Assembly (NCBI RefSeq): GCF_002177135.1
Contig: NZ_MWPH01000005.1
Location: forward strand, 62,001-126,000
DNA length: 64,000 bases
Source: Natronolimnobius baerhuensis
GTDB lineage: Archaea > Halobacteriota > Halobacteria > Halobacteriales > Natrialbaceae
Reading direction: 5' to 3'
Position 1 is the first letter of the stretch; each line of letters begins with the position of its first letter. The notes under the pieces were generated by a model, which did no database searches, had not been told where the DNA came from, and was given only the letters and a program-made list of their open reading frames with translations. The translations under genes and the position numbers were made by a program. Below are positions 1,826 to 60,705 of the stretch, piece by piece.

Positions 1826-1864
1826 GATTGTCACTGTGGGGTACAGCGTCGCCCCACGTAAATC

Positions 1865-1894
1865 TACTTGGTTAAACTGGCCTTTGACCAAGTA
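1865..1894. promoter_or_regulatory. Inverted repeat upstream of the integrase
   Basis: TACTTGGT (1865-1872) and ACCAAGTA (1887-1894) are perfect 8-base arms separated by 14 bases, 40 bases upstream of the integrase start. This could be an operator or an integrase arm site. Confidence 0.4.
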
Positions 1895-42059: not shown

Positions 42060-42857
42060 ATGAGTGTGGATATCACTACCTACGATAGAAATACGGAAAA
42101 ATATGTGATTGGAGATGCACTTGAATATCTTCAAAAGAGTGGTGAAAAGGCGGATCTTATCTATCTTGATGATGCTTGGGCACGACCGCAGAGAGCAGGA
42201 CAGTTTGGTGTTGAATACCCTACACACGGATTTGATGAGAGCGGTCGTGAACGAGCACCGGACGACTCGTTGACAACGAGTGAATTACTTAAAGCCTGTA
42301 AAGAGGCCTTGACTGCCGGTGGTTGGTTGATTGCTGACGCAGATGATTGGCTTCTTCCAAAACTCATTCAAGAATTACAAGAAGAATGGGGGAATGTTGC
42401 TAAGACATATTCTGGTGGAGGATACCGAAGAATTGGCGGGGTGACATATATTCAAAAATCTGCATTTAAAGTAGATCGTAGTAGTGCAGGTAAGTATCTT
42501 AGTAACGGTGGCTACCCGGTTGTGTTCGCACATAAGGGGGAAACAGAACGAGAATCAACTGCTTCTGCTCGACAGCTTGCGCACAAACCAACCAAAAACT
42601 TTGGTTGGGGGAGTGTCAAACCTATCGAACCGTATAAACGATGGATTGATGCACTGTTAGAAAATGGTGATAAAATATTGGTCCCTTGTGCTGGCACTGC
42701 TCCTGCAGCAATTGCTGTTGAACAATTGGAAGACAAGCAGATTGACTACACGTGTATTGACATTGATCCGCGGGCTCGCGAAGCGTTTGAACAACGACGA
42801 GAAACGGTACAGAACGATGGCGATCCTGACCAGCGAAAACTCCCATCTGAATATTGA
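42060..42857 (+). CDS. Amino-methyltransferase-like protein with altered DPPY motif
   Basis: 265 residues arranged like beta-class N6A/N4C DNA methyltransferases. The N-terminal motif IV position reads ADLIYLDDAWARP where DPPY/SPPY is expected. Motif VI-VII-like strands follow (LTAGGWLIADADDW). Near the C-terminus, NGDKILVPCAGTAPAAIAVE replaces the SAM-binding DPFxGxGT motif, followed by DYTCIDIDPRA (motif X/II type). The DDAW replacement may mean a different target atom, or loss of activity. No restriction endonuclease gene is adjacent. Confidence 0.65.
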   Translation: MSVDITTYDRNTEKYVIGDALEYLQKSGEKADLIYLDDAWARPQRAGQFGVEYPTHGFDESGRERAPDDSLTTSELLKACKEALTAGGWLIADADDWLLPKLIQELQEEWGNVAKTYSGGGYRRIGGVTYIQKSAFKVDRSSAGKYLSNGGYPVVFAHKGETERESTASARQLAHKPTKNFGWGSVKPIEPYKRWIDALLENGDKILVPCAGTAPAAIAVEQLEDKQIDYTCIDIDPRAREAFEQRRETVQNDGDPDQRKLPSEY

Positions 42858-42921: not shown

Positions 42922-44646
42922 TCAATCCATAAGCTCAAAATTCCATATGTCGACAGCAGTTTCTCCAAGTTCTTTGGACCGACGTTCGATGGTGTCCGTA
43001 TTCCAGTCAGAATAATTCGAACGGACGTATTCAGTCATTTGAAAGTCAGAAAGCCGATATTGATCTTTTTTCTGTTGGAATGGGTTCGCACTCGCTTCTT
43101 CGTTTAGGCTTTCTTCGAGAAGAGTAAGGTTTCCAATTCGATTTCGGTATTGGTTCTTGTACTCGGCTTCACCGATATCGAGCAGTTCCTTCCACGAACT
43201 GTACTTATCGGCAGACATTGCTGCTTGAGGTGCAATGTGTTCGATATCAACAGAAGCTCGGTCGTATGTTTTTCCACCTCCAGTAGAATAATATTCGCGT
43301 TCGAGTGTATCTAAGACGTATCGAGTCATCGAGTTCTGTTTAAATTCTGAACTCGCAAATTTCGCCTTAAATTCGTCATCACCAGGGGCCTCTTCTTTGA
43401 GTCGCTGGCGGATAGCGCTGATCGGATCTGACTTCTTAAAAGCGTTTGAACAGAGTTCAGAAAAGATGCGGTCAAGAGAGGCTCCTGTTGTGAGATCAGC
43501 AACCCTCCAGCGAGTCATGAATGATTCTAGTAACCGTAGAACCTCGATTGTTTTCGTCGATTCATCGAACTCTTCAATGGAGCGAAGAATCAACGTCCTG
43601 GAATGGGAGGCGCCAATATCATTTAAATTCCTGAGTCGAGAGTTCACCTTTTTGGATTGCTTTCCACCATAGGTGTCGATGGACGCGTCAATTATTCCCA
43701 TGTATGTATCGGAAATATCTACCATCTCATCGACGTACTCATCTATCGAAATACCCACATCACTCAGATCAACATCAATGATCTCATTAAATATATCATA
43801 AAGCTTCCTTGGAGAAACATTCCCTTCATAGTCCGGTTCTTCCCTAGACATAATGAAATGCCTGAAGAATCTATTTGGGTGATCTATTTGATGAACAACA
43901 TTTTGTAAAAGGAATTCCCATTGGTTTCGGACATGCTCATATTCCTCACTATCACTTCCGTATTTATAGGTAGCTGTCTGCAGCAAAGAATTTTTCATCA
44001 AATCAATTGAGGATAACTCCATCCCTCGGTTGTTCAACGTCTCAAACAACCGGAAAGCAGAACCTGGAGTATCACATTCCACGACGACTATCGTCATTTG
44101 TTTTGTGAGGTGTGCCCGTAGTTCATCTAGTTCATCCGCCGTATGATTTGAGAGTTTTTCTTCGAAGTACCTTAATGCTCTTAACAGTCTTGAACCATCA
44201 TCAACTGCGTTTTCACGCCCTTCAAGAATATGTTCATAGTCGTCGCCATCGTATCGGCTCAGGGAGAGTTTTGGCTGTTTAGTATTGCTGTCGTCCCGTT
44301 CGTGAAGATATTCGTCATTGATCAATTCCGAAATGCCGTCAGGGTCGCCCAACTCTTCGTATTGAGACTGCATTGCACAGAATAATAGTGAGATTGTGGT
44401 GAGTCGTTGCTGGCCATCTACAACCTCCAACTCTGCAAGTTGATTGAACCCACCATCATGCTTAATCAAAACTATAGATCCAAGGAAATGTGTATCGTTC
44501 TGAATAGTATTGAGATCGGTCCAAAAATCGGCCCATTGATCATTTTCCCACGAATATGGCCGCTGATAGTCTGGAACACTGTATGTACTTTTGTCGGCAA
44601 AGACGCCTTGAACAGTACTTTCAGTGGCGTCAATATTCATACTCAT
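42922..44646 (-). CDS. DUF262/DUF1524 protein (GmrSD-like type IV restriction)
   Basis: 574 residues. The N-terminal DUF262 (ParB/Srx-like NTPase) shows VPDYQRPYSWENDQW and ELEVVDGQQRLTTISLLF; the middle is helical. The C-terminal DUF1524 HNH-type nuclease is seen as VDIEHIAPQAAM and YRNRIGNLTLLEESLNEEA. GmrSD proteins cut glucosylated or otherwise modified phage DNA and many single-chain homologues act as antiviral nucleases. The His-x-x-Pro pattern and Asn ligand are present, so activity is plausible. It faces the methyltransferase-like gene convergently. Confidence 0.85.
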   Translation of the reverse strand: MSMNIDATESTVQGVFADKSTYSVPDYQRPYSWENDQWADFWTDLNTIQNDTHFLGSIVLIKHDGGFNQLAELEVVDGQQRLTTISLLFCAMQSQYEELGDPDGISELINDEYLHERDDSNTKQPKLSLSRYDGDDYEHILEGRENAVDDGSRLLRALRYFEEKLSNHTADELDELRAHLTKQMTIVVVECDTPGSAFRLFETLNNRGMELSSIDLMKNSLLQTATYKYGSDSEEYEHVRNQWEFLLQNVVHQIDHPNRFFRHFIMSREEPDYEGNVSPRKLYDIFNEIIDVDLSDVGISIDEYVDEMVDISDTYMGIIDASIDTYGGKQSKKVNSRLRNLNDIGASHSRTLILRSIEEFDESTKTIEVLRLLESFMTRWRVADLTTGASLDRIFSELCSNAFKKSDPISAIRQRLKEEAPGDDEFKAKFASSEFKQNSMTRYVLDTLEREYYSTGGGKTYDRASVDIEHIAPQAAMSADKYSSWKELLDIGEAEYKNQYRNRIGNLTLLEESLNEEASANPFQQKKDQYRLSDFQMTEYVRSNYSDWNTDTIERRSKELGETAVDIWNFELMD

Positions 44647-45168: not shown

Positions 45169-45857
45169 GTGTTTAGTTAAGGCTGAAGGATGAGGTGGCG
45201 TGATTTTTATCTGGTCTATGGCAGAAATCACCCGCCTCAGTGGTCGTAGCGACTGGGTTGACTTGGATTTTGTGGACCGAGAGCGGACACCGCGCCGACT
45301 GATGAAGTTCGGTATTTGACTGCACCTTGCCGGACTATCGCTTTCGAATACCGTTCGAGAATTAGAGAAGTTCGGTGTCGAACGATCGCGAAAACCCGTT
45401 CACGACTGGGTGCACAAGGCCGATCTACAACCCGCCAGCGATGCGAGTCCAGATCACGTCGCGCTCGACGAGACCGTGATCCGAATCAATGGACAGCAGT
45501 TCTGGCTGTACGCGGCTGTCGATCCCAAGACAAATGAATTCTTGCACGTCCGGCTCTTTACGACGACTACAACGGCATTAACACAACGGTTCTTGCGGGA
45601 ACTTCGTGAGAAACACGACGTCGAAGACGCTGTGTTTCTCGTTGATCACGCACATCACCTAGCGGCTGCATTACAACGACCAGGGCTCCGATTTCGACCG
45701 GAACGCCATGGAAATCGGAACGCCATTGAACGTATCTTTCGAGAGATAAAACGACGCACCTCACCGTTCAGCAATAGTTTCAGCAACGTCGATCCAGCGA
45801 CTGCCGAAACATGGTTACAAGCCTTCGCCGTCTGGTGGAACTCGCTAAACTAAACAC
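45169..45857 (+). mobile_element. IS6-family insertion sequence
   Basis: Imperfect terminal inverted repeats GTGTTTAGTTAA (45169-45180) and the complementary TTAGCGAG-flanked end CTAAACTAAACAC (45845-45857) bound a 0.69 kb element carrying one transposase. It interrupts the ArdC-like remnant on its left side. Confidence 0.75.
45218..45853 (+). pseudogene. IS6-family transposase with nonsense codon
   Basis: MAEITRLSGRSDWVDLDFVD continues to RRLMKFGI, then TGA, then in the same frame LHLAGLSLSNTVRELEKFGV. The DDE domain follows (HVALDETVIRINGQQFWLYA, AVFLVDHAHHLAAAL, ERHGNRNAIERIFREIKRRT) and ends WWNSLN. One in-frame TGA near codon 34 (probably CGA or CAA originally) disrupts an otherwise complete gene; the catalytic D, D and E look present. 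Initiation downstream of the stop would remove the HTH. Confidence 0.85.
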
Positions 45858-45977: not shown

Positions 45978-46844
45978 ATGACTATTGTCTCATTTGAGGG
46001 AATCCCTACTGAGAACCGTGTCATTCACATCACCGATCCCTTGACTGCAGGTAACGAAGAGGGCTACGGGATGGGGTATCTTCGAAGTCTACCGCTACTC
46101 CTGCACTATGGTGTGACGCAGTTCACCTTCCCGAGAGGGTGGCTTAGTGCGTCAAGTACGGACACGTTCGACGCGGTCGTTGAGGAACGCGAAGACAGGC
46201 AATTTCGCTACACTGCTATACCGGATCTCGAATTCGACTATGTTCTTATCGACACTGATCGACGCGCAGACACCCTTGGTTTCGACCAACTCTGCCAAGT
46301 CACAAATCAGGATCTCGAGGACGCGCAAACGTCAAGCACGACGCACAAACTTATGGACGCATATAAAACAGATCGAATTAAAGAGTTATTTCTTCTCACT
46401 GACACGGGCGATTTCAAGATGCAAGGGACGGTGACACAGAAGTCGATGGCTGAGGACGTCGACCGTATATCTCAGTTAGACTACACAGACCTTGCCCAGA
46501 AGTACATTGCTCAAAATTTCGAGAAACCACGTCTCAGTCTCGGTGAAACCCGCAATATATGGCTACACCACGCGGCAGCAGAATACAAGGATGTTATGGG
46601 ATATGAACCGACACAGATTCGCGACCTCTTCGAATTTGACATACTTAAACCCGGCATTCGAACCTGGGACATTCTCGAGTTTCTCGCCTCCGATACAGCC
46701 AAAGAAGATCCGGCTCATATCGAGGCAGTGACACGCCCCTGGGTAGAGTCAGACAATTCCGTAATCGAGACCTACATCCGGAACGCACTCCAAGAGTTTG
46801 ACTATGACCGCGAGAAAGTTCGGGCGTACCGTACAGAGGATTGA
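45978..46844 (+). CDS. Unknown protein at the head of the helicase/ATPase/PLD locus (288 aa)
   Basis: The start is ATG 45978 (MTIVSFEGIPTENRVIHITD). An alpha/beta N-terminal half (LRSLPLLLHYGVTQFTFPRG, DFEFD-like segment LEFDYVLIDTDRRAD) precedes a helical C-terminal half (QIRDLFEFDILKPGIRTWDI). No motif was recognised. It lies on the same strand as the large defence-like operon and is separated from it only by insertion-sequence debris, so it may be an original member. Confidence 0.55.
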   Translation: MTIVSFEGIPTENRVIHITDPLTAGNEEGYGMGYLRSLPLLLHYGVTQFTFPRGWLSASSTDTFDAVVEEREDRQFRYTAIPDLEFDYVLIDTDRRADTLGFDQLCQVTNQDLEDAQTSSTTHKLMDAYKTDRIKELFLLTDTGDFKMQGTVTQKSMAEDVDRISQLDYTDLAQKYIAQNFEKPRLSLGETRNIWLHHAAAEYKDVMGYEPTQIRDLFEFDILKPGIRTWDILEFLASDTAKEDPAHIEAVTRPWVESDNSVIETYIRNALQEFDYDREKVRAYRTED

Positions 46845-46849
46845 GTGAT

Positions 46850-47173
46850 AGCCAGGTTTTAGCCAGAACTCGAAATCAAAATCTCAGGGCGTGCTATGAT
46901 CTGTCATTGTCCCTATTTCTCGTCGATCAATTTGGCTATCGGACTGCCTTTGCTCGATTAGGGTTAAACGGTCGGGATGACTACACCGACCGAAACATCA
47001 TCGAAAAGTGGTTTCACACCCTCAAAATGCGAGTCGACCGTTTCCATAATTCATGGGTGGGCAGTCGGCGGAGTACTCGGAAATGAATTGAACAGTTTGT
47101 ACATTACTACAATCGCCAGAGACCGCATCAATCGCTCGGTGGACGAACGCCAACTGAAGAGGTCCTAAACTAG
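46850..47173 (+). pseudogene. Remnant of an rve-type transposase
   Basis: FLVDQFGYRTAFARLGLNGR and DRNIIEKWFHTLKMRVDRFH lead to NSWVGSRRST; then a frameshift, and QFVHYYNRQRPHQSLGGRTP ends at TAG 47171-47173. The N-terminal half is missing. The rest of the 46845-47351 gap is promoter-like sequence for the next operon. Confidence 0.8.
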
Positions 47174-47351
47174 ATAGTGCCCAATCATTGATCTGTTCAA
47201 CCAATGGATGAAAGTGTTCTTGTGAGGTGGTTTGTGGACATTTCCATGGACCAATACCTTTATTTATATTCGTTGGTATTCTCCGCCTAGAATCGATAGT
47301 GTACGGACAGGCAGACCTCTCTCAAATCAGGGACACTAACACTAATTTATA

Positions 47352-48116
47352 ATGTCAGTACTCAGACGAAATATCACCGGACATGATATTCTCGCACTAC
47401 GTGAATTCATCAGTACCGACGGACCAGTCACCGAAGACGAAATCAAGCACTGTTTCTTCCCCGGCGACGCGACCGAGTCGTCGATCTCGGACAAACTAAA
47501 GTTAATTACTGATGCTATCGGATTCTTAGAAGAGACCGAGCAGATAGTCGAGGAAACCGATGGTTATCGGCTACATGAGGGTGCTGCAAGTGCTACTAGT
47601 CCCCAAATATCGATACTTTCGGGTCTCTACTCACAGTTCGGCGAAAACGGTGCCTATCGAGATGTCCTCGGATATCTCGCCTCTGAGGACCAAACGCTTG
47701 CGAATCGCAAAGGTGAACTTCAAGATGCAATGAACGGGTACAGTCCTGATACCGGCTGGAACACGACAAATCTTGGTTACTGGGAGCGAACAATGGATTG
47801 TCTGGGTCTCATCACGAAGGTTCATGGTGACGACGCCACAATGGTGTTCGTACTCGAATATGACCTCTGGAGGGAACTGCTTAATAATGTCTGTGAAACC
47901 CGGACTACTCGACTGGAGGATGTTCTCTCGAATCTTCACGATGTGTACGTACCTGTCTGGACTTCTGGGGGGACTATCGCCAAGCACGTCCAGTACGGAT
48001 TAGCTGGTCTCGAAGAACACTCTGAGATCGATCTCCGGAAAGAAAGCGACGCTGGGGCGACCTACGAGGTTGATTCAAAGGGCGTGAATACAATCGAACT
48101 TACGACACAGTTCTAG
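47352..48116 (+). CDS. First gene of the helicase operon, winged-helix-like (254 aa)
   Basis: MSVLRRNITGHDILALREFI begins a protein with repeated HTH-like segments (VTEDEIKHCFFPGDATESSI, KLKLITDAIGFLEETEQIVE) and later FVLEYDLWRELLNNVCETRT. It could bind DNA or act as an adaptor. Its TAG ends one base before the next ATG, so it is cotranscribed with the ATPase gene. No family was recognised. Confidence 0.6.
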   Translation: MSVLRRNITGHDILALREFISTDGPVTEDEIKHCFFPGDATESSISDKLKLITDAIGFLEETEQIVEETDGYRLHEGAASATSPQISILSGLYSQFGENGAYRDVLGYLASEDQTLANRKGELQDAMNGYSPDTGWNTTNLGYWERTMDCLGLITKVHGDDATMVFVLEYDLWRELLNNVCETRTTRLEDVLSNLHDVYVPVWTSGGTIAKHVQYGLAGLEEHSEIDLRKESDAGATYEVDSKGVNTIELTTQF

Positions 48117-48117
48117 C

Positions 48118-51100
48118 ATGACACAATATCCTAAGAATTGGACCGACCGTTCCGTTGAGAAGTACGTCACTCAGGAATCCCAACAGAAATCCCGTGCTGA
48201 ATTCGAAGCTACCCACGTTCCGATCAACCACATTAAGGTCGAGCGTACACAGATCGATGCGTGGACTGACAAGGGTGAGTACATCACGGAGTCGGACTTT
48301 TACGATGCGGTCATCGATTCACATATTGAATCGGACAACCGAATGTTTTTTGTCGTTGGTGAGACTGGTTCCGGGAAATCAGAACTTTGCCAATGGCTCG
48401 ATTATAATATTCAAGACAAATACGGGAACGCAAGTGATGACGAGTTCCGTCATGAACCCATCCTGATTCCACGGGAAGTCCGAGAACCGCGAGAAGTTCT
48501 TCAGCGGCTAACACAGTACCTTGACCACACTGAACTGGACGAGGCTAAGCGACTGGCCGAACTTCCACCCGAGGGTGTTCTAGACAGGACGACTGGTGAT
48601 ATTACTCTCGCGTTCGACAAGTCGAAAACTGCGACAATCGAGTTAGTCCAGAGCAGCAAATTCAAACAAGAAGTTAGACAGAACCTCGACAAGTTCGTTA
48701 ACGCGTTTGATGATCCCGGTCAGGAGATTGAGTTTGAACCAATCTCTGAAGACAAACTTGAGTCGCTCGTTGATACGTATCCCGGCGTCGAATCGGAAGT
48801 CTCAACAGATACTAGCAATGCGATCGACGTCCTCTACAATAAGGTTACTGAACAGGCGAAGGACTCGATCAAGGACATGTTATTCGTTGGTGATCTAAAA
48901 GAAACACTCCGACAACTCAACGAGCGATTCAAAGAAGCAAATCGCCGGCCTGTGCTTATTATCGAGGATCTCAACGGATTTACAATCTTTCAGCACGAGA
49001 TCCTCTCTTTCTTTTCAGACCTCAAAGCCTCTAACTGGGACGTTGTCATTGGTGTTCCGACCGGTACAAATCAGACTCTTGTACAGGGACGGCGCGCAGA
49101 TCTTAGCACTGAGGAGACGATCAACGATCGCATTAAAGCACGCGTTGCACTCACGGAACAGACAGATGAGGGGTCGAAGACCCTCTTCCTACAGCAAGAG
49201 GAGATCCATATCGATCTCGCGCGAAAGTATCTCACCGCAATCAAGCACGACGCTGATATTGACTATTCTCCATTGGCCCAAATCTCAGAAAGCGAACTCG
49301 ACGACGCGTTCGGAGAAGGCCTGTATCCATTTAATAAGCCGTTCCTTACACGCATTTATGAAAATTTGCGTGAAGATAACCAAAAGAAACAGACACCACG
49401 AAACTACCTGACGTTTGTTATCGAAGGTTTGCTAACCAACAAGAATCCTCCCTTTGAGCACGCGGACCTGCTTAAGAAACTTGGGTCTATCGACAATACG
49501 CTTGATCCAGAATATAAAGAGTCAGATCGTGACCTGCTGAAGTGGTATGGCAAGCGGATTGACAACAACAAGTACGTTGTCGATGAACGAATACCGGAGA
49601 TGTTCGACGTCCCAAGCGATGGTTGGGCGCCGAGCGTCGATGACACGCTTCTCTGCGAGAAATGCGGTACAGAGATGGAAGAAACGAGTGAAAGCACCCC
49701 GTTCTGCCCGAGTTGTGAGACCGTGTGTTCGGAGTGCCAGGTCCCGATGGAGCGGGAGGGTGAGTATTGGGTCTGTTCAAGCAACACCGATCACAAGAAC
49801 CCTGTTGGCGGCCGCGCAGCGCTGTTCAAATCACGGAGACAGGAATTGCTCGACTGGAAGGCGGAGGGTCTTGATTTCAAGAAGACTTCCCATTTGGAGG
49901 ACGGGGCAGAGCGAGTTGTCCGCTACTTTCATGATAACCCGACCAGCCTCCGGACGCCGCCACGAAACGCTCAGAAGGCCAGTGCGGTTTGGTGGGATAA
50001 GGGCAGTCGTGCCGTTCCGATCCATATCAGCAACGGCGACGAACCAAGCTATCGAAAAGTCATCGTCTCTCGCGACCTCCCAGGGACGCTGCTTCTCGAT
50101 CTGCTCCGCATCGGGGTGTACGATGAGCAATCAATTGACGAGCATATCCAGACGGGACGCGTCGACCCTCAATTGCTCAGCTGGTGGGCTGACGAGGCTG
50201 TCACAGATCTCCGCTCGACCGTCGAGAGCGACATCGAGGAAGAGTTCGGTGTAACGCTCGACGACGTCGCTCTGTTTGGGAAGTACTTCCTCAACGTACT
50301 CGGTGGAAAGGGGACCGAATTTTCCGTGGAAGCCCTGACGGAACCGCTTGAAGCAGGAGAGCCGAGTACAAGCCAAATCGCGATCCCAAGCGAACTTGAC
50401 ATCAACAAATACACTATCGAGAACCATCGAGAGACGTTGAAAGGTCTCTTTCGGGCGCGGTTCCACTTACGGTCGAATATCGTCAACTATCCCAAACTCC
50501 AACGCTGCGTTTCACAGACCTCTCCTGAAGAGTTGGTCGATCGAATCGGCGAGATCACGAGCGGGAAAGACGGCGTGAAACTGGGTGCGACAAAATCTGA
50601 CGCCAGCGACCTCTCAGATTTCCTCCGCCTTCCGAGCAGCTTCAACGCCCGGAAAATCGCACGAAGGCTCAGCGACTTCCGTGAAGAGAGTCGATCCAAA
50701 GATCTGGAGACAGTTCGCTCGCGTCTCCTCAACGAGCACGGTACGGTCGCAGAAGCGTTCGAAGGCGTTACGAGCCCCGACGACATCGACTTCAGCGCTA
50801 TCGATGCCGCATATAAGCACTCGGATCGATCTCGACCAACAATTATTAACGAGGTCCGCAAAATCGAGGCAGAAGACTTCGAGTCGACGGTCACTGCGCT
50901 CCAGACGGAGATGAACGCGATCAAGGGTGTCACGAACGCGTGGGAATTCCTCGATGCCTATAGGACTTTCCTCAGGATCACGAATTTGGGCAAGAGCAAG
51001 CAAATTTACAATACCCTCTCAGATTTCACATCGGAATTATATGAACTCGAGCAGGCGTTGGCACAGAGAGAGGAACAGCTAGAGGACGAGGAGTTCGAGG

Positions 51101-51183
51101 TAGAGCTACCGGATACGACTCCGTTTGATGGGGCACAAGACGCCGCCGCATCCCTGGCGGATACGATCGAGGGTGGACTATGA
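48118..51183 (+). CDS. Large P-loop ATPase with zinc ribbon (1021 aa)
   Basis: An N-terminal AAA/STAND-type NTPase: Walker A FFVVGETGSGKSELCQWLDY (about 76-92), Walker B-like PVLIIEDLNGF (about 278-288), sensor-like NWDVVIGVPTGTNQTL. A double zinc ribbon at about 510-560 (LLCEKCGTEMEETSE, FCPSCETVCSECQVPM, YWVCSSN) is followed by a helical C-terminal half. The design recalls DptF-type ATPases of DNA-modification-dependent defence, but this is only resemblance. It overlaps the following gene by ATGA and is probably a complex partner of the helicase. Confidence 0.7.
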   Translation: MTQYPKNWTDRSVEKYVTQESQQKSRAEFEATHVPINHIKVERTQIDAWTDKGEYITESDFYDAVIDSHIESDNRMFFVVGETGSGKSELCQWLDYNIQDKYGNASDDEFRHEPILIPREVREPREVLQRLTQYLDHTELDEAKRLAELPPEGVLDRTTGDITLAFDKSKTATIELVQSSKFKQEVRQNLDKFVNAFDDPGQEIEFEPISEDKLESLVDTYPGVESEVSTDTSNAIDVLYNKVTEQAKDSIKDMLFVGDLKETLRQLNERFKEANRRPVLIIEDLNGFTIFQHEILSFFSDLKASNWDVVIGVPTGTNQTLVQGRRADLSTEETINDRIKARVALTEQTDEGSKTLFLQQEEIHIDLARKYLTAIKHDADIDYSPLAQISESELDDAFGEGLYPFNKPFLTRIYENLREDNQKKQTPRNYLTFVIEGLLTNKNPPFEHADLLKKLGSIDNTLDPEYKESDRDLLKWYGKRIDNNKYVVDERIPEMFDVPSDGWAPSVDDTLLCEKCGTEMEETSESTPFCPSCETVCSECQVPMEREGEYWVCSSNTDHKNPVGGRAALFKSRRQELLDWKAEGLDFKKTSHLEDGAERVVRYFHDNPTSLRTPPRNAQKASAVWWDKGSRAVPIHISNGDEPSYRKVIVSRDLPGTLLLDLLRIGVYDEQSIDEHIQTGRVDPQLLSWWADEAVTDLRSTVESDIEEEFGVTLDDVALFGKYFLNVLGGKGTEFSVEALTEPLEAGEPSTSQIAIPSELDINKYTIENHRETLKGLFRARFHLRSNIVNYPKLQRCVSQTSPEELVDRIGEITSGKDGVKLGATKSDASDLSDFLRLPSSFNARKIARRLSDFREESRSKDLETVRSRLLNEHGTVAEAFEGVTSPDDIDFSAIDAAYKHSDRSRPTIINEVRKIEAEDFESTVTALQTEMNAIKGVTNAWEFLDAYRTFLRITNLGKSKQIYNTLSDFTSELYELEQALAQREEQLEDEEFEVELPDTTPFDGAQDAAASLADTIEGGL

Positions 51184-51959
51184 GTCAGGCCATACACACT
51201 GAGAAGAGTGGAATCAAAACACGGGTCAACCGATTGAACGATCTTGCTGACTCGGTCAAAACACTTGAAGATGAGAAGGAGAACATCGAGACGAAGCGGA
51301 ATAATAGAAAACAGAGAAATCAGGCGTTTGAGGAGGTCTGGGAAGCGATCAACGACGCAAAAAGTTCCTTCAACGTTCTTTGTACTGCGGTTGGACTCGC
51401 TGCAGTCCTCGACGCGCCCGCTCCTCGACACAACATTGAACGAACACTCGACGAATATCGTCCACAACTTCGCGAGTTCGAGTCGAAGAGTTACGACGAC
51501 TTCACCGACGTAAATGAGATTAGTTCGACGCGAAAAGAGTTCAAAGCGTTTCAGGAAACTCTCAACGAGCACAAGGAGACTGTCAAGACTAACCTCGAGG
51601 CTGCCGCGGACGAAGAGTTAAGCGATGTAGAAACCAGAGAGACGATTCTTCGAATTCCCGACATCGGTACTACAACCGATACCGAAGCCGTGACCACATA
51701 CCGAAAAAAGATCGCGTCGATCAAACGCGGCCAGTTCATCGATGCGGAGGAATTAAAAGAGGCGAAGCAACGGTATTCCGAGGTCGATATCGACATCGGG
51801 ACGATTCGCTCGAACTACGGCTTGAGCGAGGACGCGGGCAACCTCTTGCTGCGCTTCTTGCGGAACGAGACCGTCACTCTCGCAGACGTCGACGACGGGG
51901 TACTGGATGAACTCAAGACGCTCGAAGAGTTCAGCAAACGACTAACCATCCAATTCTAA
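51180..51959 (+). CDS. Coiled-coil protein of the helicase operon (259 aa)
   Basis: The ATG overlaps the stop of the ATPase gene. The N-terminal 50 residues (SVKTLEDEKENIETKRNNRK) and 95-145 (STRKEFKAFQETLNEHKETV) are coiled coils; the C-terminus is a helical bundle (LSEDAGNLLLRFLRNETVTL). There are no catalytic motifs. Its position between ATPase and helicase suggests a structural link in one complex. It ends 2 bases before the helicase start. Confidence 0.65.
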   Translation: MSQAIHTEKSGIKTRVNRLNDLADSVKTLEDEKENIETKRNNRKQRNQAFEEVWEAINDAKSSFNVLCTAVGLAAVLDAPAPRHNIERTLDEYRPQLREFESKSYDDFTDVNEISSTRKEFKAFQETLNEHKETVKTNLEAAADEELSDVETRETILRIPDIGTTTDTEAVTTYRKKIASIKRGQFIDAEELKEAKQRYSEVDIDIGTIRSNYGLSEDAGNLLLRFLRNETVTLADVDDGVLDELKTLEEFSKRLTIQF

Positions 51960-51961
51960 CA

Positions 51962-54900
51962 ATGTCAGCATACGACCCAATCGAACTCGGAGAACACGCA
52001 CAAGAGAGCTACGCCCAATACCTCATCGGGAGTAATCAGCGCGGGTACCAGGGCCTCCTTAATGACTTTAGCCACGACGAAAAAACGACTGCCAAGCAGG
52101 CCTTCATCCGCTCAAAAGGTCCGTATCTCCAGGGCGTACCCTCTGCACAGTGGAGCGAGACCTCATGGCGGTCATTCGCGGAGGACGTCGAGGGCAAGTT
52201 CGCACCAGTCGGACTTGAAGAGCCTCTTATCAATGCCTTCGAAGAGCAGGGGTTCACGAACCTGCAGGAGCATCAAGAAGACGCGATTCGCTGGCTTGTC
52301 GATGATAATCATGCGCTAATCTCCGCGAGCACGGGTCGTGGGAAAACTGAGGCCTGGTTCATACCTCTCCTTCAGTACGCATTGCGGGCCAAGCAGGGAA
52401 ACGTCCCGAACCGCGCTCCGAACAGCATTAAGGCGGTTATCACCTATCCGACGAAGGCACTCGCACAAGACCAACTCAAGCGATTCATTGAGTATCTCTG
52501 GATCGCGAACCGGAAGTCCGGTCTCGCGGAAGACGAGCACATTACGATCGGCGTCTACGATGGTGACACACCCCGCCGCGGCCAGTACAACAACGGGAAA
52601 AAGACGCATAAATATCTTGAGGACTCTTACGAATATTTTGAGCTTCCTGATTCAATCGCGGACGAACTCGCGAGTAGTGATCGAGTGCGCGAAACCGAAG
52701 TGCCTCGTCTACATGTTAAAAAAGAGGGAAGTGAGTACTTTCTCCAGACTCGACAGTCATACGGCGGTGAGTTCCTCAAGTTCGTTCACCTCACCCGTGA
52801 CCGGATGGAAGCAAACCCGCCAGACATTCTCCTCACAAATCCGGACACGATCAACTACCGGTTGTTCAACATCAACGATGAAAAGGCACACCGGCTCTTC
52901 GTGGACCAGCCGAAATTCCTCGTCTTCGACGAGGTACACACCTACGAAGGACTATTCGGGGCACACGTCTCCTCCCTCGTTAAGCGCCTCCGTCGGCTTC
53001 GGAAGGCGCGTGACGTTGACGATCCGCTTCGGCTCGTCGCTTCTAGTGCAACCGTCGGGCACAAAGAGGAACTCTTCCAACGTCTCTTCGGTGTCCCACA
53101 CGGTGACCCATACGAGATCATTGAGGAAGACACAATCGTCGAGGCGCCGTCACCTGTCGGCTCGCTCCCTAAGTATGTCACCAGTGAAATAGTTGACGCG
53201 GCCAGCCTTCGAGCCGATCTTGAACGCTGGTACGCTGGCGAACCGGTCCAGACCTACTCGTGGCTTGACGATCTCGGTATCAAACCCAACGACTGCAGGG
53301 GTACCGATGCGGTCCTCCGTACCGCAGCTGACGCAGGATCAATCCCATGGCTGACGCATCTCCATGAGGTCCTCCGCGATCCGACCGAAATCGACGATAT
53401 AGCAAATGCACCCCGACCTGCTGACTTCGTCGACTACATCGCGACTACGTACGGGGTCGATGCTGAAACTGCCGAAACTGCCGCACAGAACGTACTTTCC
53501 CTGTTTGAAGCCGGCGACTTCGAGATTCGTGTCCACGTTTTCAATTGGCCGGTCGACGGCTACTACAAGTGTCTACACTGCCACAGTATCTATCCAAGCC
53601 CACAGTCCTGCGATTGCGACGAATCTGCGGGCCATTCCTCGTTTGTAACGAAGATTCGACTGTGCAACAAGTGCGGGGAGCAATTGTATGAAGCCTGGTA
53701 CTGTCCGGACTGTGCGGACGTCCGTCCACTCCGACAGGAGACCGAGGGCGAATACCTGTACGCAAACGAACCGGAATGTAGTCATGAGAATCACGGAGAC
53801 CTCACGCGCGTATACTTCACACCGGAGTACGAGTGTGAATCCTGTGAACGCACGGCAACACCGAGTGAGAGCCTCGGATCCTGTGATGCCTGTGGTGGAC
53901 TACTCACACGCACCGAAGACGGAATCGCCTGCAAGAACCCGGAGTGCTCGAATGAAGGGCGTACCGTCGACACGGCCTGCAATAATTGTGGGGGACGGCT
54001 TAGCGCCGAGGACGACCTTTCCTTCGAGTGTGACGACCCCGAGTGTGATAAGCACGGACAGGAACAGTCGGGGACAGAGTGTAGCGCATGTGACGCGCCG
54101 CTCATCCCGCGTCTTGTGCTCCCATGGGTGTGTACCGACGAAGACCACGGTGGACATCACGCACCGGAGGGGCTCACGGGTGGTTGTTCGTGCGGCCGGA
54201 ACACGTTCGTCCTATCCGCGTACATCGACACGCAGGAGGCAGACTACTGTGAGGAGTGTAACGCGGACCGAAACGACGTGTACTATCTCCCCGGATCCGG
54301 ATGTGCGATACACGGTGACGATGATGTCAAGCGCGTCCACAAGTCGTTCAATCTACGCGCGGCGTACCGTGATCAGGATGGTAACATTCGGCTCCAAACG
54401 CCGTCAGTAGCCAAGCACGCGCTTCCGTGCTATCATCAGTATCGTGACTACGACCACCTGATGCGATCGCCAACAAATACCGGGGTCACGATGAGCCAGT
54501 TCATGCTGCGGAAGCTCTCAGACGACCACGGTGACCAGAGCGCGGGGAAGCTCATGTCGTTCGCCGATTCGTACCACGACATGGAACGGCTGGCCAACGA
54601 CTTCGACGAGCCGGAGAAGTTGCTGTTCATCCAGCAACAGATGCTCCGCTACGTCGACGAGACCGGGGAGACCACGCTTGCGGAACTCATTGAACAAACT
54701 CGAAGTCGGGCCCGCGAGTACTGGAACGAACTCGGTGCCTCTTCGGACATTATCGACGATGAGATTGGATTCTTTGAATGGACGGGAACGATCATCGGGG
54801 AACTCCTACCCGGGTCGTACCGACTGTTCAACGGCGACTATGGCCGGACTTACGGACGGATGGTGTCGAATGGACTATTGAACATCGACTTCGCGGAGAC

Positions 54901-57526
54901 GCCACCGCTCAACGAGCACCGGAAAGTCTGCGCGGAACTGCTCGACAACAACCGCGTCACCCGTGAGTCTCTCATGGAGTCGCTCCGTGAAGACCGCGCC
55001 GTCGACAGTCCTACGGAAGTCATTGCGGATCTCCGTTCGAACGGTCTTATTCTGGTCGACGAGGACACGGACCGTGTCCAACTCAACCCAGACAAGATTC
55101 TGGTTCGGGCTGTAAATTCTGAACGTCCGATTCGGTATCTCTATCAGACAGATAAATTCGTCAGCGATGCGACTGCACGTGTTGCGGACACCAACTACCG
55201 AAATGCAGTTGAATTCACAATTCCGTACACTGATCGAACGACGCTACAGTCGCCACACTTCAACCGTGACGCGTACTGGGCGACAACCACGGAGACGCGC
55301 CTCCTACTGAGTCAAGTGTACAAGGGCGATCTCAAAGCTGACGAGCGGCGCCGCATCGAACACGAGTTCAAGCGGAACGCGGTGCCGAACTTCCTCTCGA
55401 CAGGGCCGGCGATGGAGATCGGTATCGACATCGGAGATCTCAATACTCTGCTCTTACTAGGCTCGCCACCAAACACGAACGCCTACCTCCAACGGATCGG
55501 GCGTGCAGGCCGATCTGCAGGGAAGTCACTGGTGACTACGATCAGCAAGCGGAACCCTATTGACTTCTATTATCACAAGAGGCCTGAGGATCTGATCAGT
55601 TCCGAAGAGAAGCCAATCCCACTCGACCAGCATAATGAGCATGTCCTCCGTTCCGCTCTCACATGGGCGACCATGGATTATATCGCCGCCAACTATCATA
55701 TACCCTGGAAGAGCGAGAAGGTCATCGAGGGCTCCCGAATCACGTGCCCTGAACCCTCCGAGTGGAACCGGTTCAAGAAGGACTCTACGCGCAGCGCACC
55801 CGACAGCGAGTACCTCACTTTCAACCGTGTCTACTACGGAAACGTGACGGAGACGGCCAAGGGTCAAACCCTTGCCGTGTTGGAGGCGATCGTACAGTCT
55901 GATGACGGGGTGCGTGCGTGGCTTGAAGATATCCTAGACTATGCGTATTGTCGGAATTGCGGTCACATCTACGACTCTGCGGTCACTGGCGACTGTAACA
56001 ATTGTAACGAAGATACGCCGCTCAAAGTAGCCAAGGTTGAATATAGTGACATCATCGACAAAAGCATCGCGGAGTTCGGCGAGCGACTGGTGCGGTTTGC
56101 TTATGAGTACCACGAGGATTTGACCGCAGAGCAGAGCGCGCTCGAAGAGCGACGGAGCGAGCAGAGCGAAATAATCGCTGATGCCAAACAAAGTACCGGC
56201 TTCGGCGACTTCTCGTCAACCGATGATGAAGAGGTCCAAGATGCCAAGCGCAAACTCGAGACGATCCGATCCGAGATCAAGACAGTCGACGAACTCCTCG
56301 ACGAGTATGACGATATGAGCCTCGCAAATGTCCACGACCGGTCCATCCGCTCGGAGTTCACACCGCAGTTGCGCGTGTTCGGCGACAACGTGGCTGTAAC
56401 CCGCTATCGCCGTAACCCGAAGACCGGAAAAATAAACGAGGAACAAGAGTCGACTTGGGACCGCAACGCAGCGATGGCGCTTCGGGAACTGCACCCATAC
56501 GCGTACAATCTCAAAAACAAACGTGGCTACGTTGTCACGCGAGTCCACGAGGACACGGAGGGAACCAAGGAACTCCGTGCGGAGCTCGGCACACAGCTTC
56601 GCTGTGGCAATTGTGGCGCGGAGGAAGAATGGAGGGGGCAGAACGTATGTCCCGACTGTGGAGCGACTGGTCCCGACGTTGACCGCGTTGAGCCGATCGC
56701 TCTGAAGCGCGTCGAACTCTCCGATAAAGAACGGCAATTTGGTGATCGGCGTTCAGAGGACATCTACCCTCTCTCCAACTATCACACCTCGCCCCGCAAC
56801 ACCTTCGCGCACGTCACTACTCGCGTCTCTGAATTTGAGCCTGACGAACGGACTGTCCTTACCGATGCGAAAGAAAACCCTATCGTGGAACTCACGCACG
56901 GGGACATCGAGATTACCGAGGCAGTCGATTCATATACCACCTCCTACAGTGACGGCCAAAGTGACCCGAAGGAACAGACGCTTACCCTCTGCGGCGAACG
57001 CCACTGTAATAGCATCGTTTCGAAAAACACTGACGACGAACCAGTATGTCTACGCGACCCCGAACACGACACTTCGAAGCAGCGCGAAGTGATGGTTGGT
57101 CGAATGTTCCAGACAAAAGGTATCCGATTAATGCCTGCAAAGGGTAGTTCACTCACGGAGCGCGAACTACACACGCTTACTCACGGGTTCCGACTCGCCC
57201 TCCAGCGTATCGGGGGCGTCGAGATTCGGTCCCTGCAGGAATCGTTCGACTATGAAGAAGGTGAAATGGAAGCGTTCATTTTCGAGAGTACTGTCGGTGG
57301 GAACGGAGTAACAGAATTACTTTACAACGTTGAGGACGGCCAGCAGGTCGAACTCGAGGACGCCCTCTCAGTGATGGCAGAGAACTTCGGTACATGCGAC
57401 TGCACCTCTGGCTGTCCCGAGTGCATCTTCCAGTACGGCTGTGACGAGAACAACAAGGACTATACTTTCGACAAGAGCGGGTTGGTCGCCCGTCTTGATG
57501 GGCTATCCACCGTCGAAGACGACTAA
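51962..57526 (+). CDS. Giant DEAD/DEAH-type helicase with zinc ribbons and DUF1998 (1854 aa)
   Basis: Superfamily 2 motifs: I ALISASTGRGKTEAW (about 117-131), Ia VITYPTKALAQDQL, II FLVFDEVHTYEG (about 319-330), III RLVASSATVGH (about 357-367), V-VI STGPAMEIGIDIGDL and AYLQRIGRAGRSAGK (about 1140-1185). The insert between the RecA lobes (about 530-785) contains some seven CxxC pairs, an unusual zinc-ribbon array, and another pair lies near 1320 and 1545. The C-terminus is DUF1998 (TVGGNGVTELLYN, then CDCTSGCPECIFQYGCDENN, about 1810). The order resembles MrfA/YprA helicases and a DrmA-DrmB fusion of DISARM. Probably a DNA translocase or nuclease-linked defence helicase. Confidence 0.85.
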   Translation: MSAYDPIELGEHAQESYAQYLIGSNQRGYQGLLNDFSHDEKTTAKQAFIRSKGPYLQGVPSAQWSETSWRSFAEDVEGKFAPVGLEEPLINAFEEQGFTNLQEHQEDAIRWLVDDNHALISASTGRGKTEAWFIPLLQYALRAKQGNVPNRAPNSIKAVITYPTKALAQDQLKRFIEYLWIANRKSGLAEDEHITIGVYDGDTPRRGQYNNGKKTHKYLEDSYEYFELPDSIADELASSDRVRETEVPRLHVKKEGSEYFLQTRQSYGGEFLKFVHLTRDRMEANPPDILLTNPDTINYRLFNINDEKAHRLFVDQPKFLVFDEVHTYEGLFGAHVSSLVKRLRRLRKARDVDDPLRLVASSATVGHKEELFQRLFGVPHGDPYEIIEEDTIVEAPSPVGSLPKYVTSEIVDAASLRADLERWYAGEPVQTYSWLDDLGIKPNDCRGTDAVLRTAADAGSIPWLTHLHEVLRDPTEIDDIANAPRPADFVDYIATTYGVDAETAETAAQNVLSLFEAGDFEIRVHVFNWPVDGYYKCLHCHSIYPSPQSCDCDESAGHSSFVTKIRLCNKCGEQLYEAWYCPDCADVRPLRQETEGEYLYANEPECSHENHGDLTRVYFTPEYECESCERTATPSESLGSCDACGGLLTRTEDGIACKNPECSNEGRTVDTACNNCGGRLSAEDDLSFECDDPECDKHGQEQSGTECSACDAPLIPRLVLPWVCTDEDHGGHHAPEGLTGGCSCGRNTFVLSAYIDTQEADYCEECNADRNDVYYLPGSGCAIHGDDDVKRVHKSFNLRAAYRDQDGNIRLQTPSVAKHALPCYHQYRDYDHLMRSPTNTGVTMSQFMLRKLSDDHGDQSAGKLMSFADSYHDMERLANDFDEPEKLLFIQQQMLRYVDETGETTLAELIEQTRSRAREYWNELGASSDIIDDEIGFFEWTGTIIGELLPGSYRLFNGDYGRTYGRMVSNGLLNIDFAETPPLNEHRKVCAELLDNNRVTRESLMESLREDRAVDSPTEVIADLRSNGLILVDEDTDRVQLNPDKILVRAVNSERPIRYLYQTDKFVSDATARVADTNYRNAVEFTIPYTDRTTLQSPHFNRDAYWATTTETRLLLSQVYKGDLKADERRRIEHEFKRNAVPNFLSTGPAMEIGIDIGDLNTLLLLGSPPNTNAYLQRIGRAGRSAGKSLVTTISKRNPIDFYYHKRPEDLISSEEKPIPLDQHNEHVLRSALTWATMDYIAANYHIPWKSEKVIEGSRITCPEPSEWNRFKKDSTRSAPDSEYLTFNRVYYGNVTETAKGQTLAVLEAIVQSDDGVRAWLEDILDYAYCRNCGHIYDSAVTGDCNNCNEDTPLKVAKVEYSDIIDKSIAEFGERLVRFAYEYHEDLTAEQSALEERRSEQSEIIADAKQSTGFGDFSSTDDEEVQDAKRKLETIRSEIKTVDELLDEYDDMSLANVHDRSIRSEFTPQLRVFGDNVAVTRYRRNPKTGKINEEQESTWDRNAAMALRELHPYAYNLKNKRGYVVTRVHEDTEGTKELRAELGTQLRCGNCGAEEEWRGQNVCPDCGATGPDVDRVEPIALKRVELSDKERQFGDRRSEDIYPLSNYHTSPRNTFAHVTTRVSEFEPDERTVLTDAKENPIVELTHGDIEITEAVDSYTTSYSDGQSDPKEQTLTLCGERHCNSIVSKNTDDEPVCLRDPEHDTSKQREVMVGRMFQTKGIRLMPAKGSSLTERELHTLTHGFRLALQRIGGVEIRSLQESFDYEEGEMEAFIFESTVGGNGVTELLYNVEDGQQVELEDALSVMAENFGTCDCTSGCPECIFQYGCDENNKDYTFDKSGLVARLDGLSTVEDD

Positions 57527-57604
57527 CTCCATCCAAGGACCTATGTCTCGTATCGGCCAATCACCACTGTTTCAAGTAGTCCCACTGTGAGGGACCAGAT
57601 ATCA

Positions 57605-59545
57605 ATGGAACTCGAGATCCCGGATTCCTTCGACGAGTTCGATGCGCACGTACTCTGGGGCGTCTCTCCACATAGCCTCCTCTTGGCGAATATGTGTCTC
57701 CAAACGGACTCCTCACAGGCAGAAGTCGCTCTCCGACGCGCCTATGACATCGAGATCGTCCGCACGAACTACGAGGTCGATTGGGAGACTTACTACGAGT
57801 TTCTCACGTCGATCTGTACGGAGTGGTTCGTCAATTCGATCGGTTCGGCTGCGATCTTCGCCGATAGCACCACAGCAAAACAGTTCGTCGTCGGCGCAGC
57901 CTACGATACGTCGGTCGGTGTAATGCGCTGTCTCCGACAGGGTGTAGATCGATTTCTTCAGACAGACGAAACGGATTCCATTGTTATTCCTTCCCGAGAC
58001 CTCAAAGCGGTCAGTAGTCGGGACGATATCCGTCTCCTCCGATCATTAGGCGTTCTCCGTCGGACAAATCAGGGCTACGAATTCGACACGGAGGTTCTGC
58101 GATCGCTCCGACTCGGCCAGACATATTCACGGTCACAAGCAGCCTGGGCCCTCTCAGACCGGCTCTGTGCTCGACTCGGAATCGATCAACCAGCAGTCAA
58201 CGAAGCCCTTCTCCACTCAGCCGACATTGACCCGCCAGACGACCGCCCAGAACGATCAGCAGCAAGTCTCCCTCTCTATCTGACCCGGTCTGACCTCGAT
58301 ACGTTCGTGAATACCATCTTCAGCGATGAGTTAGAGTCGACGATTCGAGAGATCCGAGAGAATATTATTGTCGAACGGGCGCACATTCTGGATGCCCTTC
58401 AATTCGGCATGAGTAGTGAATCCGCTACCGCGGTCGAATGGCCGATTTCGGATGAAGCCGCAGTCGTGTGTGCAGTGGCGAGCCAACAGAATCGTCCCGT
58501 CGTCGCAGACTACCTCGTCGAACTGCTTGGAAAAGACGAATTCACGGTTCATGCGACACTCCGCGATGCCGGTCTTACCGTAACTCTTGAAAACGGATTG
58601 TTACACTTCGGTAACGCATACGCAACTCCGATTGCTGACGAGGGCCCGATCAATACCTATCAGCAATGGTTAACGACACGGTTATCCGGACTCGAGGCAA
58701 GTGAGCACGGCCTCAACGAATTAGTCAACCGACTTTCTGAGGGATGGGACCGACAACGACAATCGCTTTTAGAGGCGATCATTCAACAGCTAGACGACTT
58801 TCGAGTGAGTCCAACAACATTCGTCTTCTCAATGCTCGACCCAAACTATCTCGACGACGCCCAAATGGACCAGTACGTCGACGATAGCGCGCACCTCCGA
58901 GACGAGGTGAACCAGATCAAAGCGTGGCGCGACGACCAACCGGGTGATGCGGAGACTTTCAGTAGCGCCGTCTCAGAGGTTTGCCATTATCCAGTTCACG
59001 AAGCAGGCACCGAACCAATCCTCCGGATTATGTCTCCCTGGACGAACTTCGCCATCCAGGACTACACAGCGACATTCCGCTATCTCCTCGAAAACGACAT
59101 TACGATTCAGCTTCTCTTTCGCCTTCCAAGTCGCCGGGGCTGGGACAACCTCAAAGAGCACTTGTTGACTCGCCTTGGTGAAACCAAGGGTAATCTCGAG
59201 TTGCGAACATATACACGATTCAAAGAGTTCCGTAACCACGATGAGCTCAGGGGGATTGAAGAGAGTGATGAGAACTACGTTGGAGAGACCGGAATCCACG
59301 CGAAACTGTTTATTGCCGGGAACCCATCTGACGGGACGGTGGTCGCCGGTAGTGCAAACCTCATGGAAAACAGTTTCTTTTATAATCCGGAGGCGGGTCT
59401 CAAGACGCACGACCCAAATGTCCTCGAGACGGCGATCGACTATTTTGATTTAATATGGAACATTGCAGAACCCGATCGGATTGACGAGTCTGCCTTCACT
59501 GGGAAAACAAATTTCACATTCTATCCAAAAGTGTATCGTGACTGA
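57605..59545 (+). CDS. PLD-family (DrmC-like) protein (646 aa)
   Basis: The start is ATG 57605 (MELEIPDSFDEFDAHVLWGV); an in-frame GTG at 57587 is possible. The first 450 residues are helical with HTH-like elements. The C-terminal phospholipase D-type domain shows GIHAKLFIAGNPSDGTVVAG and SANLMENSF, the HxK...GSxN signature, once only, so it would dimerise. DISARM DrmC has the same single-HxK layout. It follows the helicase by 78 bases on the same strand and probably supplies nuclease activity. Confidence 0.75.
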   Translation: MELEIPDSFDEFDAHVLWGVSPHSLLLANMCLQTDSSQAEVALRRAYDIEIVRTNYEVDWETYYEFLTSICTEWFVNSIGSAAIFADSTTAKQFVVGAAYDTSVGVMRCLRQGVDRFLQTDETDSIVIPSRDLKAVSSRDDIRLLRSLGVLRRTNQGYEFDTEVLRSLRLGQTYSRSQAAWALSDRLCARLGIDQPAVNEALLHSADIDPPDDRPERSAASLPLYLTRSDLDTFVNTIFSDELESTIREIRENIIVERAHILDALQFGMSSESATAVEWPISDEAAVVCAVASQQNRPVVADYLVELLGKDEFTVHATLRDAGLTVTLENGLLHFGNAYATPIADEGPINTYQQWLTTRLSGLEASEHGLNELVNRLSEGWDRQRQSLLEAIIQQLDDFRVSPTTFVFSMLDPNYLDDAQMDQYVDDSAHLRDEVNQIKAWRDDQPGDAETFSSAVSEVCHYPVHEAGTEPILRIMSPWTNFAIQDYTATFRYLLENDITIQLLFRLPSRRGWDNLKEHLLTRLGETKGNLELRTYTRFKEFRNHDELRGIEESDENYVGETGIHAKLFIAGNPSDGTVVAGSANLMENSFFYNPEAGLKTHDPNVLETAIDYFDLIWNIAEPDRIDESAFTGKTNFTFYPKVYRD

Positions 59546-59700: not shown

Positions 59701-60636
59701 TCATTCATTGCTCATCACTTCCTCAACAGCGTCGATGATCTCCTGTGCAGTTGAACTAATGCGCTCGAGTCGATCAAGAATAGTCTCCGGTTCATCTCCT
59801 TCCCAGGCAGCGAGGTAGAACGCTGACCCACTCGTGTCTAGTCCAAAGTACCGCCCAACGATGTAGCCGACAGCTTCGGCCTCGAGTTCACGCTTCGATC
59901 GCTCGTCTTCAGTACCGGTCCCGCTGTGTAACAGCGCGTGAGCGTACTCGTGAACGAGCGTCACAGCAAGATCTGCCTTGTTTTTCTGATCGAGAACTTT
60001 CACGAGTGGTGCTCTCCCAAGACGGTACTGACAGATGCCCTTGGCGTTCCCGTGAGACCAGTTTCGAGGAGACACGACCGTCACCTCTACCTCGAGCAAT
60101 TCAGCCGCTTCAAGGAGCGCTGGAGCTAGCTCTTTGCCTGATCCGTATGCCTCGGTCTCGAGATCCGGCAGTGGTTCGCCATCGGTCTGGGAAATATCGA
60201 ACACAGGTGCAGGCCGGAACCCAACGAGACCTTTGTCCCACTCTCCTGGTTCTGTCTTGTCGTATTCACAGCCGATTCGTTCGTGGTAGGATGGGGCGTT
60301 CTCGCATTCAGGGCACTGTCTCGCGATGATCGGTGCCCAGATCCAGAGTGCGTTTTCGCCTTCTTTCACGTGCCGATCGAACTCATCTTGCCACGTTCGG
60401 TAGCCGGCGACTCGGCTTGCTTCGGGACACTGGAGTTTGATCAGGAGTGTATTCCGGTAGGAGTAGTCATGGAACCGACTCTGGACGTCGAGCCAGTCTT
60501 TGAATTGTTCACTCGAGACAGCGTCGTCGACCTCCTCCACAAGATCATGGACCCACGTCTCAATTGTACTGTGCATCTCATCACGGCGAGTCTTCGAATC
60601 GTCGAACGACTCTTGGGACGGTGTGCTTGCAGCCAT
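59701..60636 (-). CDS. ArdC-like antirestriction protein
   Basis: I start at ATG 60636 (MAASTPSQESFDDSKTRRDE). The N-terminal domain (about 20-140; WLDVQSRFHDYSYRNTLLIK, VAGYRTWQDEFDRHVKEGEN) is the ArdC-type ssDNA-binding fold with a CPEC pair nearby. The C-terminal zincin domain shows VTLVHEYAHALLH (HExxH, about 228-240) and ELEAEAVGYIVGRYF (third ligand Glu). ArdC proteins help incoming plasmids avoid restriction during conjugation. Length 311, as usual. The last residues also occur as a scrap at 45069-45167. Confidence 0.85.
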   Translation of the reverse strand: MAASTPSQESFDDSKTRRDEMHSTIETWVHDLVEEVDDAVSSEQFKDWLDVQSRFHDYSYRNTLLIKLQCPEASRVAGYRTWQDEFDRHVKEGENALWIWAPIIARQCPECENAPSYHERIGCEYDKTEPGEWDKGLVGFRPAPVFDISQTDGEPLPDLETEAYGSGKELAPALLEAAELLEVEVTVVSPRNWSHGNAKGICQYRLGRAPLVKVLDQKNKADLAVTLVHEYAHALLHSGTGTEDERSKRELEAEAVGYIVGRYFGLDTSGSAFYLAAWEGDEPETILDRLERISSTAQEIIDAVEEVMSNE

Positions 60637-60705
60637 ATGTGAATACGTGCCTCTCGAGACTAACTCGAGATGGCCGTCACCCGTGTCGGCCACAAAAACC
60701 TCCAC

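Follow-up and report, generated by a model that had tools for sequence, protein, structure and literature searches.

A candidate single-helicase member of the BRIGADE class in the haloarchaeon Natronolimnobius baerhuensis

Results

Layout of the locus

The window is the whole 64,000-nucleotide stretch of Natronolimnobius baerhuensis DNA that we analyzed; it belongs to a 151-kb contig (C5) of a 3.9-Mb genome. The features of the locus are collected in Table 1. All of the open reading frames given in an earlier note on this DNA were found where that note had placed them. The four genes from the wHTH gene through the helicase gene are packed as tightly as described there, with junctions of 1-4 bases, and the PLD gene follows them. 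The note also had IS debris separating the leading gene, Z0, from the rest, and we find transposase remnants on both sides of Z0. Because of the remnants between Z0 and the wHTH gene, expression of the operon as a unit, with Z0 co-transcribed with the remaining genes, is doubtful in this strain. The supposition that these genes belong together is borne out by the neighborhoods of their relatives: 20 other haloarchaeal genomes have the same set of genes in unchanged order, a recurrence that puts the operon far beyond chance. The contig also carries an integrase (704-1891, minus strand) and two Orc1/Cdc6 proteins and a family-B DNA polymerase (16068-17096, 25181-27346, and 28125-29471), and on account of these genes it looks like a plasmid or an integrated mobile element.

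Table 1. Features at the locus, in window coordinates
Feature	Position	Strand	Length (aa)	Remarks
Possible accessory protein, methyltransferase-like motifs by eye	42060-42857	+	265	No family match
GmrSD-type (DUF262/DUF1524) restriction protein	42922-44646	-		Inserted between the methyltransferase-like gene and Z0
IS-transposase remnant	45410-45853			
Z0	45978-46844	+	288	ATG at 45978; operon-leading gene
IS-transposase remnant	46841-47086			
DpdG-like wHTH protein	47352-48116	+	254	Profile match to DpdG
DpdH-like P-loop ATPase with zinc ribbon	48118-51183	+	1021	NCBIfam and PADLOC DpdH matches
Coiled-coil protein (I), DpdI position	51180-51959	+	259	Positional basis; kept in 20 genomes
YprA-family SF2 helicase, DUF1998-type C terminus	51962-57526	+	1854	DruE, DpdJ, and MrfA matches
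PLD-superfamily nuclease (predicted)	57587-59545	+	652	PLDc_2 and DrmC/ZacB matches; N-terminal ~450 aa outside the assigned fold
ArdC-like anti-restriction protein	59701-60705	-		Between effector and modification genes
BrxC/D-like AAA ATPase	63291-64448	-		3′ part (63291-64000) inside the window
U9, no assigned family	64445-65344	-		Beyond the window
TGT paralogue	65341-66375	-		Beyond the window
DpdA	67238-69442	+		NF041059; beyond the window
DpdC-like DUF6884 protein	69445-70146	+		Beyond the window

Homology of the effector proteins

The helicase matches DruE at 5e-48 (162 bits), DpdJ at 2.8e-36, and DrmA at 72 bits, and its best match among solved structures is YprA/MrfA (6znp, 4.9e-27). 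The SF2 motifs and the C-terminal Cys cluster of DUF1998 type (CDCxxGCPxC...YGC) that had been recognized earlier are invariant across 12 relatives, and helicase and DUF1998 are indeed fused in one ORF. A scan of genome contigs with the single helicase sequence gave no relatives, but an alignment-based scan found them. The closest relatives are all haloarchaeal, and the helicase-alignment scan of viral contigs returned no relative.

The 1021-residue ATPase had seemed an added oddity in the operon, and this view has to be given up since the protein is DpdH-like, with matches to NCBIfam NF041065 (1.6e-19) and PADLOC DpdH (4.6e-14). We also ran profiles built from haloarchaeal relatives against two annotated bacterial Dpd islands (a 31-protein set). 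The profile of ATPase relatives matches Dpd proteins at 1e-31 to 4e-8, and the wHTH profile (22 homologues) matches annotated or positional DpdG at E values of 5.9e-11 and 4.9e-4; the wHTH gene precedes DpdH in the same place as in the dpd cluster of Agrobacterium vitis. Coiled-coil protein I has no significant match to DpdI (best profile E 0.13), and the best profile E of the PLD protein (K) against DpdK is 0.55, the common ground being that both are PLD proteins. The order wHTH-ATPase-coiled coil-helicase-PLD is nevertheless that of dpdG-H-I-J-K in A. vitis.

The PLD protein matches PLDc_2 at 2.5e-5 and DrmC/ZacB at 1e-5 to 1e-6. It has a single HxK followed by GSxN, in agreement with the earlier reading, and the residues of this half-site (H571, K573, S589, N591, and E602) are invariant in 14 sequences. 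By analogy with the PLD family, the presence of one HxK half-site suggests that the protein is a dimeric nuclease. Its predicted structure is poor (pLDDT 63), and Foldseek gave nothing below E 0.05.

A modification cluster across the 3′ edge of the window

When the ORFs within 20-60 kb of homologous loci were all clustered, a second conserved gene set emerged, which begins inside the window with the BrxC/D-like ATPase and runs past its edge, so the earlier picture of an operon with no modification half was incomplete. The DpdA of this set is an NCBIfam equivalog, scoring 276 bits versus a cut-off of 200, and the genes for DpdA, the DpdC-like protein, and the TGT paralogue lie 4-11 kb downstream of the PLD gene. 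Housekeeping TgtA, ArcS, and QueC are encoded on other contigs of the genome, so preQ0 should be available and the TGT of the cluster would be an extra copy. Among the cluster proteins scanned, there were no matches to DpdB, DpdD, DpdE, or DpdF.

Co-occurrence of DpdA with the effector genes

Across 392 genomes of the order, DpdA is present in 35 of the 36 that have a DpdH-like gene (counted at E below 1e-40) and in 17 of the 356 others, and the two genes lie within 30 kb of each other in 29 of those 35. The Fisher p value of 6e-36 overstates the independent evidence because the genomes are related; the pairs nevertheless span many genera. A further 14 weaker DpdH-like matches (E 1e-10 to 1e-21) were set aside as probably another ATPase family, with DpdA in only one of those genomes. 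Gene order has been rearranged repeatedly among the loci without separating the DpdA cluster from the effector.

These counts bear on whether the effector might instead interfere directly with incoming DNA independently of any modification, like Druantia or ARMADA, with the DpdA cluster as an independent neighbor in a defense island. The higher score of the helicase with DruE than with DpdJ is in keeping with such an arrangement, as are the one genome that has the ATPase without DpdA and the 17 that have DpdA without the ATPase. However, a near-complete association over many genera, which has survived repeated rearrangement, argues against it, and we find it improbable.

The same association can be set against a Type IV-like system, in which the effector would attack 7-deazaguanine-modified viral DNA while the derivative made by the host's own DpdA cluster would be a different one that is tolerated. 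Haloviruses with 7-deazaguanine pathways do exist (PMC6884629, PMC8651126), HVTV-1 carries dPreQ1, and several zinc-binding modules of the helicase could read the base. But DpdA is nearly always in the same genome and usually in the same locus as the effector, as would be expected of a self-mark rather than of a target, and we regard a Type IV-like activity as unlikely.

Assignment to BRIGADE and comparison with named systems

BRIGADE, described by Bell et al. in a 2025 preprint (PMC12458937), combines a 7-deazaguanine cluster, Dpd-like proteins, an ARMADA/Druantia-like YprA helicase, and a PLD or PD-(D/E)xK nuclease, and it occurs in halophilic archaea only. It usually has two YprA-like helicases, and in Type II a beta-hairpin zinc module is inserted in RecA1 (PMC12458937). 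The locus studied here has the ARMADA/Druantia-like YprA helicase, a DpdA/DpdC-like/TGT cluster (65341-70146), the PLD nuclease, and haloarchaeal relatives, and it has neither a second YprA-like helicase nearby nor the RecA1 zinc module; it does not fit either published BRIGADE type. We consider it likely, from homology and gene content, that the locus is a BRIGADE-class (Dpd-related) restriction-modification-like system of a single-helicase variety, which would pair a 7-deazaguanine self-mark with a helicase/ATPase/PLD effector. The earlier proposal of a possible undescribed defense operon thus holds as far as a defense-type operon goes, but the operon is not undescribed since BRIGADE has the same composition. 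What is new is the single-helicase lineage, as the class itself had already been described.

For comparison with Type II, we took loci on plasmids of Natronorubrum aibiense (NZ_CP045489) and Natronococcus sp. CG52 (NZ_CP099393) as examples, with the type assigned by gene content in this analysis. Type II loci share Z0, the DpdG-like and DpdH-like proteins, I, an ARMADA/Druantia-like YprA helicase, a 650-aa PLD protein, and a nearby DpdA/DpdC/TGT/U9/BrxD cluster. They differ in having two tandem helicases and the RecA1 zinc hairpin, where the window has one helicase and no hairpin, and most have a Csa3 gene beside Z0, whereas none was seen at the window locus. A Type I locus (L037, in genome G279) shares Z0-G-H-I-J and the DpdA cluster but has a second, Dpd-like YprA helicase of ~900 aa with its own partner genes, and no second helicase lies near the window locus. 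Most of the related loci conform to one or other of the published types, having either two tandem helicases with a PLD gene or a single helicase of this kind paired with a Dpd-like one. The tandem helicases are 37-38% identical in six loci (L075, L076, L094, L097, L102, and L106), although in the preprint the two helicases of Type II are described as nearly identical.

Compared with the bacterial Dpd system (dpdA-K; A. vitis plasmid CP146243), the locus shares DpdA, DpdG, DpdH, a helicase, and a PLD protein as well as the G-H-I-J-K order. However, the window helicase is nearer to those of Druantia/ARMADA and retains the DUF1998 cysteines, which are lost in canonical DpdJ (PMC12458937), and the PLD protein is 652 aa compared with ~175 aa in Dpd. 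Profiles for Z0, U9, and the BrxD-like ATPase found no counterpart in the Dpd protein set. One bacterial Dpd island, on a plasmid of Paenibacillus sp. 37 (L073), contains two sets of DpdH/DpdJ-like genes; a doubled helicase module thus occurs outside the archaea as well.

The resemblance to DISARM that had been pointed out earlier is real for two of the parts, namely the YprA-family (DISARM/Druantia/Dpd-like) helicase, which carries a C terminus of DUF1998 type, and the DrmC-type PLD protein, but it does not extend to the system. In DISARM, the DrmA helicase and DrmB (DUF1998) are encoded by separate genes accompanied by a methyltransferase, whereas here a single ORF contains both and the operon has no methyltransferase family match, as the earlier note had it, and the helicase score with DrmA is less than half of that with DruE. 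The name DISARM was rejected on the fusion and the missing methyltransferase match. Druantia was also rejected as a system name. A kinship to the haloarchaeal PbeABCD module had been raised as well, and both have helicase and PLD domains; Pbe, however, is built of a PLD-helicase fusion, an SMC-like PbeC, and two small proteins. No dnd genes had been visible in the earlier reading, and DndC (TIGR03183) has no match in the genome; PbeABCD with dndCDEA was rejected for this reason.

The single-helicase lineage

In helicase trees comparing the haloarchaeal loci, with DpdJ or another outgroup, the window helicase clusters with those of G120, G361, G464, and Salinibaculum sp. KK48 (99-100% SH-aLRT), apart from the J1 and J2 clades of the paired helicases. 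Four of the five clade genomes have Z0-G-H-I-J-PLD with one helicase. In the fifth, G464, the clade helicase is accompanied by a Dpd helicase cluster resembling that of Type I, and there is no PLD gene of the window type nearby; lineage and gene composition are therefore not in perfect agreement. All five have DpdA on the same contig as the operon. The clade is also marked by the RecA1 zinc hairpin region, where residues 222-272 contain no Cys in any of the five members versus 3-5 Cys in all other full-length helicases compared. With DpdJ as outgroup, the single-helicase clade branches first (support 94, long branches); with another outgroup, the order of J1, J2, and the single helicases is open. 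A search of the genome for a second YprA-like protein found only an 887-aa frame on contig C1, the main chromosome, which looks like a repair or housekeeping helicase.

We weighed whether the locus is instead decaying and has lost its function. Signs that could be read in this way are the insertion sequences near Z0, the lack of a second helicase, and the genes inserted between PLD and DpdA. The IS fragments that flank Z0 and the frameshifted Z0 or PLD genes in the relatives G120 and G361 would agree with decay. But every ORF in the window is full length with its motifs intact, and the single-helicase layout occurs in three other genomes and its clade is old, which argues that it is not a fresh loss. 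We consider decay very improbable.

We lean, by a modest degree, toward reading these loci as a third type of BRIGADE. It would be an old lineage in which a single YprA helicase lacking the RecA1 zinc module is joined by a dedicated PLD nuclease and, at three of the five loci, by an accessory protein resembling a methyltransferase. Its single-helicase state would be an alternative to, or a forerunner of, the J1/J2 pair, and the whole would be a minimal archaeal system for excluding DNA without a 7-deazaguanine mark.

Z0 and accessory candidates upstream

A Z0 family gene heads the operon in all 21 related loci compared, and the window Z0 is 49% identical to its Salinibaculum KK48 counterpart. 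Z0 has no match in Pfam, PHROG, or PDB profile searches. Its predicted structure is poor (pLDDT 60, 7 sequences), and Foldseek gave nothing below E 0.05; the weak matches were mostly AAA+ and we do not rely on them.

The 265-aa protein was found only in three single-helicase loci (three of the five clade loci), and the copies other than that in the window are at L180:12404-13171, L104:1-606, and L031:14254-14956. It directly precedes Z0 in two other single-helicase loci, and the window copy is displaced by GmrSD and IS debris. Family searches gave no match, and its motifs (LDDAW ... PCAGTAPAAIAAEQ...CID, with the DPPY-like motif altered) resemble a permuted DNA methyltransferase. Salinibaculum KK48 has a 73-78% identical copy of the GmrSD protein, split in two, at a distance of 2 kb downstream from its locus. 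In 13 related genomes (L035, L038, L042-L050, and others), a divergent gene for the CARF-wHTH regulator Csa3 sits beside Z0, which suggests control by a CRISPR-type second messenger in those genomes.

Discussion

According to a review (PMC12707154), Dpd islands label DNA with 7-deazaguanines, and transformation dropped when the eight genes associated with them were moved; the function of DpdA has been reported (PMC6884629). BRIGADE is known solely from the computational description in one preprint (PMC12458937), and none of its members is known to modify DNA or to stop a virus. By homology to Dpd, we expect DpdA with its partners to mark resident DNA and Z0-G-H-I-J-K to act on DNA that lacks the mark. 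In the mechanism that we propose, preQ0 from the host archaeosine pathway would be inserted into host and plasmid DNA by DpdA, assisted by the TGT paralogue, the BrxC/D-like ATPase, and U9, and the DpdC-like protein would possibly convert the inserted base. The resulting 7-deazaguanine would label DNA as self. An assembly of Z0, DpdG, DpdH, I, YprA, and PLD would survey DNA and, upon meeting unmarked viral or plasmid DNA, the ATPase and helicase would load onto it and move along it, and the PLD protein, which probably acts as a dimer, would cut or nick it, with a presumed antiviral effect.

Among the loci compared, the single-helicase version is the simplest BRIGADE layout. Such a system would allow a direct test of whether archaeal defense uses a transglycosylase-exchanged DNA base as a self-mark and a test of what the second helicase contributes in Types I and II. 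Its genes also illustrate the recombination of Dpd, Druantia/ARMADA, and DISARM parts. Haloarcula vallismortis ATCC 29715 has a two-helicase BRIGADE-like locus (L102) with DpdA. Hutinet et al. (2019) proposed that a host DpdA modifies halovirus HVTV-1, and the DpdA of L102 may be that protein.
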